Shown: in pieces, positions 21,344-40,468 of the stretch | Position numbering within the stretch: the stretch's first letter is position 1 | Layout of the letters: each line of letters opens with the position of its first letter | DNA from: a virus | IMG/VR virus record: IMGVR_UViG_3300025013_000125 | Coordinates: 1-40,468 of that record | Reading direction: 5' to 3' (one strand) | Length of the DNA: 40,468 nucleotides | Made by a program: the position numbers and the translations under genes | Notes under the pieces: model-generated | What the model saw: only the letters and a program-made list of their open reading frames with translations | The model's database searches: none | What the model was told of the DNA's origin: nothing

Positions 21344-21825
21344 TGGCGCGATCGGTGGAGCTGACCGGGGACTGGGCGGTACTGAAGAAGGTGCTGGACA
21401 ACGCCTCGCCAAAGCTGAAAAGGGAGAGCCGGCGCACCATAGGCAAGCAACTGAAGAAGATCGAGGCAACGGTGCTCTCGCACCTCGACTCGCAGGACCT
21501 GGGCTGGCAGGAGCTGTCGGAGGCCTACCTGGAGAAGAAGGAGCGGGCGGGGCTCTCTCCGGACACGCTCAGGGCCACCAACCAGATGTACTCCAACATC
21601 ACCACGGCGCAGGAGAATGACTACTCCGGGGCGGTAGGGGTGATGAGGGGAGTGAAGACCAAGGAGGGGGAGGAGCTGACGGACATCGCCATCATCCATG
21701 AGCAGCCGGAGGATGACGGCAAGGTGATGCCGGCCAGGAAGCTCTGGAAGCCCACTTTCGACGAGATGCAGACGGGGATCGCGGCGGCGCTGAAGGGGAT
21801 AGCTATCGAGGTGTTCAAGAAATGA
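21343..21825 (+). CDS. Tail completion / virion morphogenesis protein (Mu G-like)
   Basis: In this 160-aa protein the layout WQELSEAYLEKKERAGLSPD is typical of phage virion-morphogenesis proteins of the Mu gpG / P2 gpS type. A later block (IAIIHEQPEDDGKVMPARKL) matches the HEFG-and-PARPF-like end of that family. Such proteins join tails to heads or complete the tail tip. It overlaps the next gene by four bases (ATGA). Confidence 0.7.
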   Translation: MARSVELTGDWAVLKKVLDNASPKLKRESRRTIGKQLKKIEATVLSHLDSQDLGWQELSEAYLEKKERAGLSPDTLRATNQMYSNITTAQENDYSGAVGVMRGVKTKEGEELTDIAIIHEQPEDDGKVMPARKLWKPTFDEMQTGIAAALKGIAIEVFKK

Positions 21826-22424
21826 AGGCCGCCTGCATCAAATACCTGACGGACCGGATGGAGGCGCTGCTGGCCCGGGACGGCGAGACGCTCCCCTACC
21901 GGGTGGCGGTCTCTGATGACGAGCTGCCGGCGAACCTCTTCTTCGACGAGCTACCGCTCGACTTCCTGAAAGACAACGACTGGGCGGCCTGCTGCCTGCC
22001 GCTGCAGGACCGCACCAAAAAGATGGGCCGGCTGTTCGCCCGGGGGCTCAATGAGGACAAGACGGAATTTACCCTTACCCGGCGGCGCTTTTCCCGGGAG
22101 ATCCTGTTTCGGTGCCTTATCTACGCGCCGACGGCGGTTGAGCTTTGGGGAGACGGGGAGCATGTCGGTCTGGTCGATCAGCTGGTCCAGGCGGTGGCGG
22201 AGCATAAGTACATTGCCGCCGGCGACGACAGCGCCATCAAGGTGGAGCCTCAGGATCTGGCTCGGCCCTTTGACTCTGCTGTTGAACAGGATAGGAAGCT
22301 CCGGCGCGCGCGGCTGGCGATTGTCCGGGTGCTGTTCACGGGCGGGGTGCAGGTGACTGCGACTCTGCCGGTGATAACGAGTGTCGAATTTGTACCAAGC
22401 GTTGGAGGAAACGATGATGTGTAG
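21822..22424 (+). CDS. Tail terminator-like protein (Mu gp37 position)
   Basis: In this 200-aa protein an N-terminal helix precedes alternating beta segments ([20 protein letters not shown], then [20 protein letters not shown]), as in phage tail terminators. It lies between the tail-completion gene and the tail cluster. Its last 11 bases overlap the start of the fibre gene. Assignment rests on order and secondary-structure impression. Confidence 0.5.
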
Positions 22425-25400
22425 CCGGTTTTTCTTTATTGCAGTGCTGGTGCTCAGTCTGGCGTGCGGCTCTCAGGGGTTTTGCGCCGATGCGGGGGTG
22501 GATCTCACCAAGATCCTGATCGCCCGTCCGGATGCGACGACGCCGCCGGGGAGCACGGACACGCTGCCGATCATCCAGGGCGGGGTGCTGAAAAAGATCA
22601 AGCCGAGCCAACTGGGCGCCGGTTCGGGTACCGTCGGGCCTGCCGGGCCGACCGGCCCCCGGGGGCTCACCGGGCTAACTGGCCTCCAGGGCGAACCCGG
22701 CCCCGCTGGTGCCGATGGTGCAGACGGTGCTCCTGGCGCTGATGGTGCCCCTGGTGCAGACGGTGCCCCTGGTGCTGATGGTGCTCCTGGTGCTGATGGT
22801 TCGGACGGTGCTCCTGGTGCTCCTGGTGCGGACGGGGCTCCTGGTGAACAGGGGCTGCAAGGCGAACCAGGCCCGCCCGGATCAGGCGGAACAGCGGTAA
22901 CGATAACGACCGCCACTGGCACATTCGTGGCGGCCAATGCCACCAGTTATCTGCTATCTGGCGACTGCGACATCACCCTGCCGGCTCCGGTAGCCAACGG
23001 CTGGATCAGTTTCGTGAGCGGGGCGGCGGGGTCCGCGCTGACCTCGGGTGTCGTAACCAAATATGCCGATGCGGCGCTGTACCTGGACAACATCAGCGTC
23101 CCCTCCGCGACACTCTATACCTATGACGGCAGTAAGCTCGGGCTGGTTTCGGACGGCGTCTCCTGGATGGGCGCCAATATGGCAGCGGTCACGGTCAACG
23201 GATCGCCGACCAGTATCCCCGCTGGCCCGGTTTGGTCGGATGGCTCGGAGTTGTCCGGGCATACGCTGACCGTGGCGGACATCTCCGACGCGGGGAGCGC
23301 AGCAACCCAGGACATCGAGGCGTTTGCCACGGCAGCGCAGGGGGAGTTGGCGGAGACAGCGCTACAACCGGGGGATGTTGATAATGAGGTGAGCGCCACT
23401 GCCTACAACGGCGGAACGCTCACATCGGCAACCATTAACGCGGCCATCACTGCGATCGGCTCCACGGTTAAAACTCTGGTGCTTACGCCTGGAACATGGG
23501 TCATGGCCAGCAATATAACGATCCCTGAGAACATAACACTGAGGCTGCAACCCGGCGCTTTAATCCAGAGGACCGGCGGCGTCCTCACTATCGATGGTCC
23601 TATAGATTTCCCGGAACAGCGGTGCCTGTCAGGGTTTATCTCAGGATCAATCCTGTGGGGTGACAGAGCCCACGAGATCGATATCGAGTGGCAGGCTCTT
23701 GGTGATGGATCGGATGACTACCAGAACATCCAGTCGCTGATTAACAGGATCAAAGCCGGAACCAGCGTGGACTTCGGAGTCGAGCAGTCCTACAACATCG
23801 GCACCAACACGCTGTCATTCGCAGGGATCACCGGCGGGGAGATCCACGGCTACGGGTCGCGCATCTACGGGAACAATACGGCATACGGGCTGCTTTCAGC
23901 TTATGGCCTGTTGAGCAGCAACACTGGCCAGAGCATTGCTGTGACCAAAGATTCTCTGACATTCACCATTCCCGGCGGAATTACAGTCGCCGCCGGCAAC
24001 ATGGTTCGGTTAATCCCCGCTGCGCCTTACCTTTACAACTACTATGCGGGACATATGGCCCAGGTGGTCTCTGTGTCTGGTTCAACTGCGACCATGGACA
24101 TCCCGCCTCTCAATACCATCACCGCCGCAACCCTGGACGTGTTCGTCGGGATGCACAACGGGTTAATAGAGGATCTAGTTTTTGATAGCCGTTCGGCTAC
24201 CACCGCGATTACCAGCGCAAGCCTTTACGCTTCTAACGTGACCATTAGGAATTGCGACTTCCTCGGCGCGGACAACGCTGCCGCAGGTCTTGCCGTGACC
24301 GGGAACAACCTTGTCCTGGAGGACATCTATTCGACCGGTTATCTGAACAAGATCGGCGTGTCGGGTGGTCGGATGGGATATGGCATCGCGGCATCCGGGA
24401 CAAACATCACGATAGATCGCGCCGTCGTAACCAACTGCAAACATGACGTGGCACTAGGGGCAGACCGCAGCATCATCAGCAACAACAACGTAGTCAAAAA
24501 CTCAATTCTTTGGCAGGACCCTGCGCATTACGGGGAAGAATTAACAATTTCCGGAGCGCAGCACGCTTACTTTTCCACCGCTATTGACGCTCACAGCAAT
24601 CTTGAGCAGTGGGAGGTCACCGGCAATACCATCACTGGCGCGTCCGTCGTCGGGCTAGCATCGATAAGGAACGGCAAAGGCGTGTTTTCGGGCAATACGA
24701 TGCGCCTGGCGAACAGTGACAGCAACGGCAACATTTTTATCGTCGGGGAGAGAACGCTGACGACTCTGCCGCTCACAGGCAACACGATCACTGCGGACAC
24801 CGCAGGCATTCCTTTGGTTCGCAATGCGGCTACGGATATCGATGCTATTGCGACAGCGTCGCCATTCTACGCGTCTGAACAGGCGGTGAAATACGCCAAT
24901 AACTACCTGTCTGGTGTGTCGTGGAAGGGATGCACCATTCAAGGCGACCGCATGTTTGCTGCAGCAGCTCCGACCAGTTTCACCTGGGAACTTAACGATT
25001 TCGTCCACAACAGCAACCAGACTGCAGGCTCTGCACTCGGGTGGCGATGCGTCGCGGCCGGAACACCCGGGACTTGGGAGGCGGTGACCAACGCAGCGAC
25101 TACTGTCAGCGATACCGCCTATGACGCCACATCTTGGGACGGTGACACCACAACAGCACCGTCCAAAAACTCCATTAGAGACAAAATTGAGTCGATGGGG
25201 ACCGGCAGCGGAGACATGGTTGGACCTGCGTCTGCTGGTGATAATGAGATCGTGAGGTTTGACAGCACCACAGGCAAACTCGCGCAGCGATCCAGTGGCG
25301 TCACCGTCTCGGACACAGGGACCATCCAGACATACCAGACGAACCAGAGCGTCGAGATCCTTGCCGTAAATAGCTCAGACTCTTCCGCCAAATACCCCAA

Positions 25401-26304
25401 ACTCCTAGTGCGGAACTGGGACGGCACGGGTGCGACCGGCTATGGGGGCTTCCCCTCCGTACAGATACAAAACGGTCGCGGTACTGCTGCATCTCCGCTC
25501 CCTTTGGCTTCTGGCATGAGGATCTTCTCTCTTTTGGGTTATGGCTATGGGGATACCGGCCTCAAAAACGGGATTTCGATTCAAGCTGACGCCTCCGCCG
25601 CGTACACGGATGCTAACCAGCAAACCGATATGACCATCTATCTCGGGACTGTCGGTGGCAACGGTTCTATGACCTCGCGTTTTCGCATCAAAGGGGACAC
25701 TGGCAACGTGGGCATAGGCGTTACTACACCAACAGCGGCACTGCATCTCAAGGCCGGGACTGCTACGGCAAGCACCCCACCACTTAAATTCACGGCGGGA
25801 ACCAGCCTGACAACTGCAGAGGCCGGAGCAGTCGAGTGGGATGGGACAAATCTATTCGTCACACAAACGACCGGCCCTACCCGTAAGACGATGGCCTACA
25901 CGACTGACATTCCAAACCTTGCCGCTCCCGGCGCAATCGGCGGCACGACCCCTGCGGCGATCACCGGCACGACTATAAAGGGACAGCAGTTCACCGAAAC
26001 GGCCGCTACCGCTACGGGGTCATCGTTCACGCCGCCAGGACTCACGGAGAGCCTGTACGCCTACACCCTCAATGCCAACTCAACTATCACGCTCCCCACA
26101 ACCGGCCTGCCGACTGGCGTCGTAACGCTGAATTTCAACCTTACCGGGACGGCCGCCTACACGGTGGCATGGGCTGGCGGTACGCGCCACGTCATCGGCG
26201 TTCAACCCGCGGCGATCACCGCCAATAAGGAGTCCTGGTGGACGGCCACAAGTAGGGACCAGGGCGCCAACTGGAGCCTGTTCTACGGCGGGGTGGAGCA
26301 ATGA
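22414..26304 (+). CDS. Large collagen-like, beta-helix fibre protein with signal peptide
   Basis: The order in this 1,296-aa protein is a Sec-type signal ([19 protein letters not shown], likely cut after FCA), a 28-triplet Gly-X-Y stretch (residues 75-158), and a pectate-lyase-like right-handed beta-helix (about 320-850, many NNVT/GNTI turns). A stalk with [17 protein letters not shown] and a [20 protein letters not shown] segment follow; the latter is typical of fibres ending in chaperone-type domains. No obvious endosialidase-chaperone tail follows. ATG 22414 or 22417 is set by TTGGAGGAA. A fibre gene placed before the sheath gene, and with an export signal, is odd. It could be a surface protein rather than a virion part. 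Confidence 0.75.
22636..22887 (+). repeat. Collagen-like Gly-X-Y coding repeat
   Basis: Twenty-eight consecutive Gly-X-Y triplets are encoded, with alternating GAP and GAD units in the centre. The DNA there repeats an 18-bp unit (GGTGCTCCTGGTGCTGAT) with few changes, so length variation by slippage or recombination is likely. Confidence 0.9.
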
Positions 26305-26900
26305 TCCGCGTCATCTGCATAGCGTTAGCGCTACTGACTCTCTCTGCTCCGGCTGATGCCATAGGTCTGGGCCGGGCGCTGCGGGTGAGCCCCTGCATTC
26401 CACCCACTACGCTCCACGGCTCCGCGTCGATCAGCTCCACGGGCGCGTGGCCCTCAGGGGTAGCAAGCACCTGGGGTACCTGTGTAATCCCGGTCACGAT
26501 CACCGTCAAGGGGTCAGGCGGTGGCGGAGGGCAATGGTTTGGCGACAACGACGGCTCGCTAGGGGCGGATACTACCGTCAGTCGCGCCGGATGGTCAATG
26601 ACTGCTAACGGCGGCGGCGGGGGTGATGCCGTAGACCCCAATGCCGTTGCATCGGCGGGAATCCAGTCCTACACCGGCACGGTCACAGCGGTCACGCAAA
26701 CCACAGGCAATGGTAATTTAGGCGGCGTACCGGATGACGACACCCATGCAGCCCCCGGCGCGCGTGGCGGATATATCAAGGGGACCGTGACGGGGAATTT
26801 TACGGTCGCGAACCCGATATCAATCACCATCGGCCTCGGTGGCTATGCCACTCCGGTTGCTACCGACGGGCAACCAGGCAGCGTTTTGATCGAATGGTAA
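26301..26900 (+). CDS. Gly-rich secreted-type protein
   Basis: This 199-aa protein has a clear signal peptide ([20 protein letters not shown], cut after ADA). The mature part is Gly/Ser/Thr-rich, with runs of Gly ([20 protein letters not shown]) and a C-terminal beta part ([18 protein letters not shown]). Gly-rich parts of this type occur at tips of phage fibres. It overlaps the large fibre gene by four bases (ATGA), so both are made together and may form one complex. Function unknown. Confidence 0.65.
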
Positions 26901-27341: not shown

Positions 27342-29027
27342 ATGAAAGATGTATTTGAGTATCTGGTGGACGGTGTCTCGGGGCTGGCTCCGGGAGGCGT
27401 GGAGGGGGCTGCTATCGTCGTCGGGGTCTGCTCCCTGGGCGAGACGGGCAAGGGTTATCTGCTCGGCAAGTCGTCCAACCTGGAAGCGCTGCTCGGGGTC
27501 GGGCCGCTGGTGGACCGGCTGCGCGATATCTTCGCGACGGCGGGCCAGGGTGCGGTGGTGATCGCAGTGCCGGTGGGGGGGCTGGCCGGTGGTTACATCA
27601 CCACGGTGGAGCTTGCGGGCGATGGCCCGGTGGGCGCCGCCAGCGGCGTGCCAGTGGATAACGCCACGGTCAAGGTGATGATCGTGGCGGGGGGCGCGCC
27701 CGGGGTGGCCACGGCCAAGGTGAGTCTCAACAACGGTGCCGTGTACGGCGCGCCGGCTGCGGTACCGGAAAACGGTCAGATCGCCATCGGGGCCACCGGG
27801 GTCACGCTGGTGCTGGCCGCGGGCGACCTGGTGGCGGATGACGTCTATTCCTTCCTGGTGCGATCGCCGATCGGGCCGGTGACCAAGGTCGGGGCCGGTC
27901 CGGACATCGCCGCGGCGGGGACGGTGAAGGCCGCGGCGGAGGTGATCCTGCTGATCACCGGCGCCGGACTGCGCAACGTCGGGACCTATCAATTGAGTCT
28001 TGACGGCGGCGACTCCTGGAGCGGCATCAAGACTATTCCGGTGGACGGGGCCATTGCGGTCGGCAGCACCGGGGTGACCATCACCTGGCCCGAGGCCGGT
28101 GCAGCGGTGGCCGGCGACTCCTATTCGTTCCTGTTGCTGGCGCCGGCGCCCACGGTAACGGCGGTGATCGACGCGCTGGAGACGCCGCTGTCGCTTTACG
28201 ACGTGGAGTTCGTGCACGTGGTCGGGCCTGCGGACTCGTCGGACTGGGCTGCGCTGGGGGTGCAGGCGGACCTGCTGTGGAATGCGCATCGCCCCACCTT
28301 CTTCCTGGCCGAGACCAGGCTCCCCTATGACAACGAGACCATCGACGACTGGTCGGCGGTGCTGGCGGAGGAACGGCAGGATTTCGCTCACCGGTTCGTC
28401 TCGGTCTGCTGCGCCTTCGGGGAGATCTCGGAGTCGACCGGCCGGCGCATCACCCGCAACGCGGCGGGGCTGGCCGCGGGGAGGCTTTTGGCCATTCCGG
28501 TGATGCGGGCGCTGGGGCGGGTCAGGGACGGCAACGTGGCGCCGCTCGCCCTGCCGGTGGAGTACACGGAGGCGCACCAGGACGTGCTGCAGGCGGCCGG
28601 GTACCTGACGGCGCGCCGCTATGCCGGGCTTTCGGGTGTCTACTGGGGCGATGAGCGCACCATGGCGGACCCGACCAGCGATTACCAGTACCTGACGGTG
28701 CTCAGGGTGGTTTTCAAGGCGGTCAGAAAGGCGCGCATCGCGGCGCTCAAGAGCATGTACGACGAGGCGGGAGACCCGGCGCTGGGCATCAGCGCGGGCG
28801 GGCTGGCCTACCTGAAGGTGGGGATCGAGACGGCGCTGAACACCATGGTGAAGGCGGCACCCAGCGAGCTGGCGGCGCACCAGGTGACCATCCCCTCCGG
28901 ACAGGACATCGTGAACAACGGGGTGGCGGTGGAGATGGTGCTGATCGGCATCCCGATTATCAGGAGCATCAAGCTGTTTGCCAGCTATGTGTGCGCCGGC
29001 GGGGCTTTCGATCCGCGGCTAGGGTAG
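27342..29027 (+). CDS. L: Tail sheath protein (Mu L-like, DUF2586)
   Basis: This 561-aa protein forms the contractile outer tail tube. The N-terminal part (GVEGAAIVVGVCSLGETGKG) and C-terminal half (FFLAETRLPYDNETIDDWSA, RALGRVRDGNVAPLALPVEY, and the closing IPIIRSIKLFASYVC) follow the sheath pattern. Between about 93 and 272 are two related 85-residue beta domains, each ending DxYSFLxxxP (VYSFLVRSPIGP and SYSFLLLAPAP). These are probably surface-exposed decorations arising by duplication. AAGGGAG precedes the ATG. Confidence 0.85.
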   Translation: MKDVFEYLVDGVSGLAPGGVEGAAIVVGVCSLGETGKGYLLGKSSNLEALLGVGPLVDRLRDIFATAGQGAVVIAVPVGGLAGGYITTVELAGDGPVGAASGVPVDNATVKVMIVAGGAPGVATAKVSLNNGAVYGAPAAVPENGQIAIGATGVTLVLAAGDLVADDVYSFLVRSPIGPVTKVGAGPDIAAAGTVKAAAEVILLITGAGLRNVGTYQLSLDGGDSWSGIKTIPVDGAIAVGSTGVTITWPEAGAAVAGDSYSFLLLAPAPTVTAVIDALETPLSLYDVEFVHVVGPADSSDWAALGVQADLLWNAHRPTFFLAETRLPYDNETIDDWSAVLAEERQDFAHRFVSVCCAFGEISESTGRRITRNAAGLAAGRLLAIPVMRALGRVRDGNVAPLALPVEYTEAHQDVLQAAGYLTARRYAGLSGVYWGDERTMADPTSDYQYLTVLRVVFKAVRKARIAALKSMYDEAGDPALGISAGGLAYLKVGIETALNTMVKAAPSELAAHQVTIPSGQDIVNNGVAVEMVLIGIPIIRSIKLFASYVCAGGAFDPRLG

Positions 29028-37414: not shown

Positions 37415-38185
37415 ATGGAGTTTAAAACTATCTGGACATTGTTGGGGCTGGCTAAAAGGGCCAATGCCGAGGTGCTGGGCAGCCTGGTGGAGATCACCCA
37501 CATGGCGTTTGGCGACGCGGACGGCGACGACGCCTTCTTGCCGGATCAGGCGATGGAGGCTCTGGTCAACGAGGTGCACCGCCAGGCGGTTGATTTCGTG
37601 CAGATCGACGAGGAGCAGCCGCAGTGGGTAAACGTGGAGGGGCACATACTGGCGGCAGACGGCGGCTGGTGGGTGCGCGAGATCGGGCTCTTCGACGCGG
37701 ACGGCGACCTGGTGGCGGTGGGTAACTGCGCGCCCAGGTACAAGCCGGTACTGGAAGAGGGGGAGTCGGGAGACCAGTACTTCCGCCTGGTGCTTTTGAC
37801 CTCGAACACGGCGGTGATCACGCTGAAGACTAACACGGCGCTGGCGGTGGCGAGTCGGAAGTACGTGGATGACAACACGGTGGCCTGCCGCTCCTCGCAT
37901 ATGAGGGTCGTTTTGGAGAGCCAGGCCGTGCTGGCTGGGGATCGGGCTCTGAGCATCGATGCCAGCGCCGGGGACATTGACCTGACGCTTTTCGCGGCCA
38001 ACAGCGTGTCTGCCCGGGCGATCCTGCTGCACCGGGAGGATGACACGGCGAATACGGTGAACGTGCTGGTGGTGGCCGGGACGGTGTGTCGCATGGACGA
38101 CTTCCCGGAGATCCTTACCGGACAAGATGAGACGGTATCGCTCTTTCCGAGAGCTGCCACCAATAACTGGATAAAAGTTATTTAA
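37415..38185 (+). CDS. Tail-fibre N-terminal adaptor (tail-collar DUF3751 type)
   Basis: This 256-aa protein begins with a phage_tail_N/DUF3751-like domain (LVEITHMAFGDADGDD, WVREIGLFDADGDLVAVGN, VLLTSNTAVITLKTNTALAV). A ~75-residue beta part follows (RALSIDASAGDIDLTLFA). It probably links baseplate and spike. GAGGAG precedes the ATG. It lacks a long fibre of its own, so the next protein is the likely receptor-binding partner. Confidence 0.78.
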   Translation: MEFKTIWTLLGLAKRANAEVLGSLVEITHMAFGDADGDDAFLPDQAMEALVNEVHRQAVDFVQIDEEQPQWVNVEGHILAADGGWWVREIGLFDADGDLVAVGNCAPRYKPVLEEGESGDQYFRLVLLTSNTAVITLKTNTALAVASRKYVDDNTVACRSSHMRVVLESQAVLAGDRALSIDASAGDIDLTLFAANSVSARAILLHREDDTANTVNVLVVAGTVCRMDDFPEILTGQDETVSLFPRAATNNWIKVI

Positions 38186-38197
38186 AGGAGATTTCAG

Positions 38198-40468
38198 ATG
38201 AAATTTTGGTGCGGTCTTTTAACACTTCTCGTTTTGCTGAGTGCCTGTGGACGTGCGGAATCGGCCATACTGATACGGGAGCCAAGCGGCGCGCTGATTT
38301 CGAGCAAGCTGACCCTGGACCAGTGCAGGGTATCCCCGCAGTGCGCGGGCAAGGAAATCTTGATAACCACGCCGCTTTCGGCAGTTCAGTCCAACATTTC
38401 ATCGGCTACGGTGCATCAATGGCCGGCTGATCGCCCGTTACGCTTTACTGGTAAAGGGAGCCTCGGCAACACTACCGTTTTCCGCTTTTCAGGAAGCCAG
38501 ACTGGCTGGCCCATGGCTAAAATCTTCGCGGGTACAGGCAGGATAGAGGGACTGAGTGAGGCTTTTGCCGACTGGTGGGGGGTCGACGGAGTTTCTGACC
38601 AAGTGGAAGTCAACCAGGCCATCCAGTCACTAGTTACAGGTGGGGTGCTTAGGGGAAGCACCGCAACGTATATAACCTCCGCAAAGATCCTGGTGGACAA
38701 GACCATTAAGGTCCTCTTGCCGTTCAACGTAAAAATAATGGACAATGCCCCCCTGCGCGATGCTCCCGACCAGGCCAGTGCAACATTTTCTGTGATCGAG
38801 GTAACGGCGCCGAACGTGATGATCGATGGGATTACCGTGGACGGCAACAGATCTGGTAACCCCACTTGGCTGTGGGACCACTCGGCAAACTATGGAGTCA
38901 GCTTTCACGCTCCATACTGTACACTCCAAAATTCCGAGATCAAAAACGTGACGGCCAATTGCGCGGGGCCCGCAATCCTTGGGGGGACTGACACTAAGGG
39001 GGACTACTGCTCATTTATCAACAATAAACTCCACGGAGCCGGGAAAAAAGGCATACATTCCGGTAAAGTGGTTGGTGCCTTAATTCAAGGCAATACCATC
39101 TACGGCAACGAACATGATTCCGGAATTGGGCTTCACCAGGGGGCCACGCAGTACATCGTAACCGGCAACAACATCTACGGTAACTATTACGGCATCAACC
39201 CCGGCGAATCGTTTGACATACCAGGCCTTGTCGGCTCGGGCATCATCAGCCACAACAGCATCCACGATAACATTATAACCAACGTGTTCGTGACGATGGT
39301 GTGGGACATGCCGGCACGCCCCACCGGGACCATCACCGCCATAACCAAGGCAAACCCCGCAGTCGTTACGAGTGCCGCCCACGGCCTCACGACCGGGACT
39401 CCTGTGCAGATCATCACAAGTGACAGGTTCGGCATGACGGAGATTTACACGACCATCGCCAACGTGACCGTGATCGACGCCGACAGGTTCTCTCTCGATG
39501 GTGTGGACTCTACAACTTACAGCACGTTCTCCTATGGTTCATGGATCTACGAGCCGACACAAGAGGATTGGGACACCACAGGGCTAAGCGAAGACACCAT
39601 CGAAAACAGGGTGATAATCAGCGAAAACGACATATTTTACACCGCGCAGCCTACCGAGCCGAGCGGTGGCGTTCAGGCCAAAAACCCTTTCAACATTGAG
39701 GTATGGAACACCAAGGGCGCCAAGGTCATAAACAACAACATCAAGAATGGCGGGCTGCTGGACTATAATGGTATCGCGAATGAGATAAGCAATAATACCT
39801 GGGTAAGCAACTACGCTTATACTCAGGATTACCTGATTGCGCTCCGTAGCTCCGCTGTAACTGGGTCGCACAGAAACCGGCGCGCTGTGGTTAGCGACGA
39901 GATTAAGAATAATCGTATCGAAGTCTCCAACGTGGTTCAGGTGATCGATACGTCTGGCGATTCAGGGACGGCGATAAGTGGTAACACGTTCCGAATTAAC
40001 GCGGGTGGCACATATGAAGTCCGTGTCCGGGACGCGGCCAGCGTAGCCACTGTCCAACTTAATCAGCCCCTCGGCAGGATCCGGCTCGGAAGCGTCGCAT
40101 ATCCGTCAGGGTACACCGGCAAACCCCCATACTATGCCACCGCCATGCCAACGGCAGGTCTATGGACGTTGGGGACTAGAGTAGAAAACAACAGCGGTAC
40201 TATTGGCGCCCCTCAGGGGTGGCGAGTGACGACTGCTGGCGGTGCTTACTCGGTAACCAGGGCTAACTCTACGCCTTATTCAGAGTACGTAGAGGCGCGG
40301 TGGAGTTCCGGATCGACCGTATGGACTTGCACTACGGCGGGGGTTAGTAATGGCTCGGAACCGGATATCACTGGCAAGGTGGTGGGTAACACGGTTACGG
40401 ATGGGACGGTGGTTTGGACGATGAACAGTCTGACTTCAGCGGTGTTCACTTCGGAAGGCAACCTGTAG
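38198..40468 (+). CDS. Pectate-lyase-like tail spike with lipoprotein-type signal
   Basis: In this 756-aa protein the N-terminus MKFWCGLLTLLVLLSACGRA is a signal with lipobox LSAC-G (Cys17). A pectate-lyase/beta-helix body follows (about 120-350 and 440-620, with GNTIYGNEHDSG and NNIYGNYYGINPG turns). An inserted FCCH-like domain (KANPAVVTSAAHGLTTGTPV, then FSLDGVDSTTYS) lies at about 375-445. The C-terminal beta repeats (GLWTLGTRVENNSGT, TDGTVVWTMNS) are typical of spike ends. It would cut or bind host polysaccharide. AAAGGAG precedes the ATG. An export signal on a tail spike is unexpected. Ends at the last base of the window. Confidence 0.78.
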   Translation: MKFWCGLLTLLVLLSACGRAESAILIREPSGALISSKLTLDQCRVSPQCAGKEILITTPLSAVQSNISSATVHQWPADRPLRFTGKGSLGNTTVFRFSGSQTGWPMAKIFAGTGRIEGLSEAFADWWGVDGVSDQVEVNQAIQSLVTGGVLRGSTATYITSAKILVDKTIKVLLPFNVKIMDNAPLRDAPDQASATFSVIEVTAPNVMIDGITVDGNRSGNPTWLWDHSANYGVSFHAPYCTLQNSEIKNVTANCAGPAILGGTDTKGDYCSFINNKLHGAGKKGIHSGKVVGALIQGNTIYGNEHDSGIGLHQGATQYIVTGNNIYGNYYGINPGESFDIPGLVGSGIISHNSIHDNIITNVFVTMVWDMPARPTGTITAITKANPAVVTSAAHGLTTGTPVQIITSDRFGMTEIYTTIANVTVIDADRFSLDGVDSTTYSTFSYGSWIYEPTQEDWDTTGLSEDTIENRVIISENDIFYTAQPTEPSGGVQAKNPFNIEVWNTKGAKVINNNIKNGGLLDYNGIANEISNNTWVSNYAYTQDYLIALRSSAVTGSHRNRRAVVSDEIKNNRIEVSNVVQVIDTSGDSGTAISGNTFRINAGGTYEVRVRDAASVATVQLNQPLGRIRLGSVAYPSGYTGKPPYYATAMPTAGLWTLGTRVENNSGTIGAPQGWRVTTAGGAYSVTRANSTPYSEYVEARWSSGSTVWTCTTAGVSNGSEPDITGKVVGNTVTDGTVVWTMNSLTSAVFTSEGNL

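Follow-up and report, generated by a model that had tools for sequence, protein, structure and literature searches.

That receptor-binding proteins can be joined in vitro to finished particles is established for tailspikes of the P22 type. The nearest exported fibre-like proteins in the literature are bacterial: the MAT proteins of Bdellovibrio, with a beta domain of about 130 aa straight after the signal and a trimeric fibre tip (PMC10769870), and WceF of Pantoea stewartii (PMC7949094). Searches of an open-access library turned up no account of Sec-targeted tail fibres as a class, an absence that is no proof of novelty. In a survey of diversity-generating retroelements, phage target proteins were without signals, and this was taken to favour a phage over a bacterial-surface origin (PMC6199706).

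We examined a fibre gene in the virus contig IMGVR_UViG_3300025013_000125, whose full 40,468 bases are here called the window; other loci are given by L numbers. The contig belongs to a myophage with a DUF2586 sheath, and its late genes run in the order terminase, capsid, neck, sheath, tape measure, baseplate J and PF12571 tail-collar connector; from this gene content we read the phage as Mu-like. The sheath was used for placing the phage and its hosts. Its closest relatives by identity are L012 (84%; an IMG record derived from an isolate), L013 (82%), L014 (79%) and a Desulfuromonadaceae MAG (75-76%), and the remoter ones are mostly from Desulfobacterota. The features discussed below are these:

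21822..22424, plus strand: gene at the neck/tail-completion position; its stop overlaps the fibre start
22414..22494, plus strand: Sec signal peptide that opens the fibre, with signal peptidase I cleavage predicted after ADA27 and a poor lipobox-like LSLAC18 as well
22495..22611, plus strand: N-terminal adaptor-like module of the fibre, residues 28-66; equivalent to the start of signal-less fibres/connectors in L161, L159 and L114
22627..22896, plus strand: 30 uninterrupted Gly-X-Y (collagen) triplets of the fibre, residues 72-161, from Pfam PF01391 and a triplet count
23293..25890, plus strand: beta-helix/stalk body of the fibre; 94% identity to L002, PF12708-like at about 24166-24501
25954..26301, plus strand: C-terminal tip of the fibre, unlike the tip of the L002 homologue
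26301..26900, plus strand: Gly-rich partner of 199 aa with its own signal peptide; its start overlaps the fibre stop
27342..29027, plus strand: tail sheath (DUF2586)
37415..38185, plus strand: signal-less connector, with a PF12571 baseplate-binding N domain (residues 2-148) and a C-terminal beta "dock" domain ending NNWIKVI
38198..40468, plus strand: at the canonical fibre site, a beta-helix protein of tailspike type that bears a signal peptide and an LSAC lipobox

The fibre reading frame (22414..26304, plus strand; 1296 aa) is called real, and encodes in order a Sec signal peptide, Gly-X-Y triplets, a weak match to a pectate-lyase-type beta-helix, and a fibre stalk. By sequence and operon, as a large fibre with a Gly-X-Y repeat among tail/late genes, it groups with the phage collagen-like tail fibres and may be a virion part. 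The sequence-only reading had listed 28 Gly-X-Y triplets and a beta-helix; the collagen segment stands (PF01391, E=1.5e-13) with the count corrected to 30, and the beta-helix has modest support, since PF12708 scores slightly below its cut-off (E=6.8e-6; 26.5 against 27.0 bits) and residues 505-679 match Klebsiella phage tail proteins by tblastn (E 5e-8). Among isolated phages the fibre found only such distant Klebsiella tail-protein matches and the spikes found no match. A PDB sequence search with the fibre returned no relative and nothing useful; the AlphaFold2 model of its body was uninformative (pLDDT 32), and no fold search was made on it. That the protein is polysaccharide-active, as also suggested from the sequence, is plausible at the level of a glycan-active fibre.

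Sec signals were predicted with a strict rule set. The fibre N-terminus passes it, with a positive n-region, an uncharged h-region and an AxA site, and its upstream start has a ribosome site: the ATG at 22414, which follows a GGAGG at a distance of 5 nt, overlaps the neck-position gene's stop (ATGATGTGTAG). Out of 769 genes in the late operons of related loci, 4 passed. Since two of these are themselves tailspikes of the present kind, the background comes to about 2 in 767. Among internal Met starts 1 of 375 passed, as did 2.4% of shuffled N-termini for the fibre (1-4% across each tested N-terminus). The lipobox [LVI][ASTVI][GAS]C is absent from the fibre, whose S-L-A-C at residues 15-18 departs from the strict motif. 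The segment following the cleavage site also begins the signal-less L161 and L159 fibres and the L114 connector (local scores matched by 3 of 2000 shuffles for L159 and by 0 for each of L161 and L114), so the signal looks pasted before a standard fibre start. An export signal unexpected on a tail fibre was the point of departure of the sequence-only reading, which proposed signal-peptide prediction as a check and a start beyond the hydrophobic segment as one way it might fail. The later in-frame starts (codons 11, 13, 29 and 58) each lack a Shine-Dalgarno sequence, so the signal-bearing start stands; judged by these rules the fibre signal peptide is confirmed as genuine, and it is unusual for a tail fibre.

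Neither the fibre nor its signal is confined to this contig. L002, a separate 95-kb viral contig, has homologues of the fibre, the Gly-rich partner and the spike, with signals of differing sequence. Its fibre body is 94% identical over 866 columns and has an unrelated N-terminus that yet again begins with a signal; its Gly-rich protein is 71% identical with a diverged signal, canonical in look though failing the strict cleavage-site rule; its spike is 36% identical to that of the window. Thus the type of signal is kept while the signal sequences diverge. Between neck and sheath L012 and L013 have no fibre/Gly-rich pair, which, with its signal-bearing presence in the window and L002, marks the pair as a mobile cassette. 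The Gly-rich partner was sought in 277 genomes of the class and found in none; it has no family match, and its AlphaFold2 model has a pLDDT of 38. Directly downstream of the signal-bearing Gly-rich protein of L002 lies an endolysin-like protein with a signal peptide (L002:13795-14421). L013 has another insertion, between capsid and neck genes (L013:3826-7895); its first gene is signal-bearing, with a weak match to podophage GP4 fibre I (PF23140, E=1e-5), and is followed by two large unknown genes. In P2-like phages, large fibre-like genes sit as insertions upstream of a baseplate gp25-like gene (L113:7862-9400, with a signal peptide; L261:562-1848, with a hydrophobic N-terminal segment), both outside the usual fibre site, as is the fibre at 22414.

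The spike at 38198, whose reading frame runs past the contig end at 40468 and so has a partial C-terminus, carries an L-S-A-C that matches the strict lipobox motif. A signal-bearing tailspike also follows immediately after the connector in L012 and L013 (82-84% sheath identity). Connectors upstream of most such spikes are short and signal-less, with a phage-type-specific N domain and a beta domain ending NWYRI, NWIKVI or NWQTI. Between the connectors of the window and of L012, identity is 80% over residues 1-152 (N domain) and 26% beyond (dock). Dock type follows the N-terminal type of the spike, with L012, L013, L112, L113 and L110 in one set and the window, L002, L116, L117 and L114 in the other. 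Such co-variation is expected if dock and spike touch, and contact between them is what we infer; against this, adjacent genes can be swapped together by linkage. The fibre gene of the window has no adjoining connector, which counts against docking of the fibre. The dock bears a faint likeness to PF25692, a depolymerase C-terminal domain (E=0.009). In two loci a dock-bearing connector has no adjoining spike or fibre (L167:7309-8052 and L176:6001-6738), and there the dock may serve as a tip on its own.

A profile (A5) built on the N-terminus of the spike had hits in 19 of 277 genomes of the class to which the Desulfuromonadaceae MAG belongs. Signal-bearing spikes stand at tail-operon ends of P2/Mu-like (L112, L113), T7-like (L116, L117, L123), sipho-like (L119) and other (L114) phages, and signal-bearing fibres often precede these prophage spikes; L122 has a fibre with a signal and a spike without, and the surroundings of L110 and L120 are isolated or degraded. 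Further signal-bearing cases are found in viral contigs (L179, L181, L258, L260, L262). Many divergent genes have a canonical AxA site just ahead of the point where the mature protein starts, and a lipobox is present in the signals of the window spike (LSAC), L002 (LAAC) and L179 (LVGC). The sequence-only reading considered this one fibre. A signal is also present on the tailspike and Gly-rich protein of the same phage and on many receptor-binding proteins of unrelated ones, which points to a strategy general among phages and not to a lone adhesin.

Signal-less homologues of the spike (L182, L171, L109, L122) start with an ATG at, or at most 2 residues from, the predicted cleavage site, each with an AAGGAG ribosome site; the L182 start (M-AILIFSSNG) coincides with the cleavage site of L105 (QANA-AILVFSSNG). 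L179, with signal, and L182, without, have identical gene order and architecture, which implies that some phages make the mature protein in the cytoplasm as well. L009 and L011 have the beta-helix known from the L002 spike without a signal, fused to another N-terminus, and in L100 a homologous beta-helix is fused to a virion N-terminus, again without signal. From these comparisons the signal looks like a real, swappable and optional export tag on receptor-binding proteins. In the Desulfuromonadia prophages and viral contigs (Mu-like, P2-like, T7-like, sipho-like), a spike or fibre gene that stands apart, behind a signal-less virion connector, usually carries a signal, and connector-fused spikes do not. 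A stricter rule, that a standalone connector always has a signal-bearing receptor-binding gene behind it, does not hold: the spikes of L182 and L171 are signal-less, other signal-less genes follow in L162-L164, and L167 and L176 have no spike. Because PF03906 was too narrow for T7-like connectors, an alignment of those connectors was used instead. About 60 informative viral loci have their T7-like N domain fused to the remainder of the fibre, and in none of them does a fibre or spike with a signal come after it; the lone flagged gene encodes a short holin/spanin-like protein (L193). Most of these loci are closely related to each other, so the comparison is descriptive only; the split versus fused tally was done by hand, its fused set is mostly near-identical prophages, and its Fisher value is given no weight.

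Other Desulfuromonadia prophages (L155, L156, L165) have 360-aa genes behind PF12571 fibres, ending ..GERLPxRGGxW..GFRPAFV. By eye these proteins resemble variable binding proteins of the formylglycine-enzyme type, and reverse-transcriptase-like ORFs near those of L156 and L165 suggest diversity-generating retroelements.

We tentatively propose, as having a little less than an even chance, that the fibre is a late Sec pre-protein, receptor- or glycan-binding, of a Mu-like Desulfuromonadia myophage, and is added to virions at lysis. It would be synthesised late in infection, threaded into the periplasm, cleaved and trimerised there; once the cell had been opened by holin and endolysin, the fibre would meet the cytoplasmic particles and dock. 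The signal implies that the receptor-binding protein would reach the periplasm before lysis, and the signal-less versions, holding the same gene position, imply that the mature protein is of the virion type. Signal, context and modularity are observed in the genes themselves; a path through the periplasm to the virion is the favoured interpretation of them. Extended to tailed phages of the Geobacter group, the proposal becomes a two-compartment assembly, possible although we would not wager on it, in which heads, tails and connectors are cytoplasmic and Sec-exported fibres and spikes, matured in the periplasm, join them only at lysis via an exchangeable dock.

A serious rival, with a real chance of being correct yet one that we would sooner doubt than assert, is that fibre and spikes are exported late, to the periplasm or the outer surface, as free enzymes or receptor masks that cut or cover surface glycans while the virion uses the short connector alone; superinfection would be blocked, progeny spared trapping on debris, or biofilm matrix opened after lysis. 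Exported tailspike-fold glycan enzymes are known in bacteria (WceF, with a Tat signal; PMC7949094), phage T5 exports a receptor-blocking lipoprotein (PMC9586334), and a lipobox occurs in a number of the signals (window spike, L002, L179). The fibre pair lies at a non-fibre site and is missing from L012 and L013, and GC3 is low in all three signal-bearing genes, those of fibre, partner and spike (0.64-0.67, against 0.78-0.90 in other genes). This is countered by the signal-less homologous spikes of the same position and architecture, by the fused virion versions, and by L012, which would have no other obvious receptor-binding gene in the examined region if its spikes were non-virion. Addition to particles at lysis, or free enzyme release, would be the simplest account of a protein of virion type that reaches the periplasm before lysis.

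The suggestion of the sequence-only reading that a lysogen displays or secretes the fibre, as an adhesin of lysogenic conversion, agrees with the export signal, the adhesin-like collagen and beta-helix, and the inserted cassette of distinct GC3. It fares poorly in the operon: the fibre start overlaps the neck-position gene (GAGGAAACGATGATGTGTAG), the fibre stop overlaps the next gene (AATGATC), and promoter- and terminator-like sites around the gene are no more frequent than chance, from which we infer that it is transcribed late, with the structural operon. The homologue of the neck-position gene in L012 and L013 is followed directly by the small pre-sheath ORF. A moron of lysogenic conversion would have its own promoter and terminator apart from the late operon, and the fibre gene has neither above chance; nor has the fibre a recognisable outer-membrane anchor. 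Low-level expression in a lysogen is compatible with all this, and we consider the lysogen adhesin improbable. Least probable of all is that the hydrophobic segment is no working signal, translation starting later or the segment being a membrane anchor or inert: the signal prediction does rest on simple rules, but the later starts are without ribosome-binding sites, AxA sites recur before the mature start in divergent genes, and signal-less versions begin at that point.

Signal peptides are thus found repeatedly on receptor-binding genes among several unrelated types of tailed phage that infect one bacterial class, and are optional on homologous spikes. This suggests that host-recognition fibres may leave the cytoplasm before lysis, counter to the usual view. 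Should these proteins end up on virions, the assembly of tail fibres can be divided across the inner membrane; should they not, phages export tailspike-type enzymes in free form at a late stage of infection. In both cases such phage genes would be overlooked by annotation that takes a signal as a mark of a bacterial gene.

Among known systems, the phage collagen-like tail fibres (PHROG 5073, 6320, 1806) share the Gly-X-Y segment and the fibre modules in a structural operon; the window fibre differs in the Sec signal before the module, and the PHROG matches are mainly over the collagen part. The T-even gp38-type adhesin is a polyglycine sandwich encoded beside the long tail fibre, and the protein at 26301, Gly-rich and fibre-adjacent but without a family match, is at most a candidate for this kind. 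Bdellovibrio MATs, likened here by description, are phage-fibre-like trimeric adhesins after a signal peptide, but the predator's own genome encodes them and they serve in the invasion of prey (PMC10769870), whereas the window genes lie in phage late operons. WceF is also an exported tailspike-like beta-helix glycan enzyme, from a host polysaccharide biosynthesis cluster and with a Tat signal (PMC7949094), where the window has a phage gene and a Sec signal. T5 Llp is an exported phage product whose gene adjoins a receptor-binding gene, but it is a small receptor-blocking lipoprotein of superinfection exclusion (PMC9586334) and the window protein is a fibre. Finally, phage tailspikes and depolymerases with PF12571 or T7 gp17-type N domains have the same genomic position and beta-helix body as those described here; they are usually one cytoplasmic polypeptide, whereas here the connector and the spike with its export signal are separate proteins.
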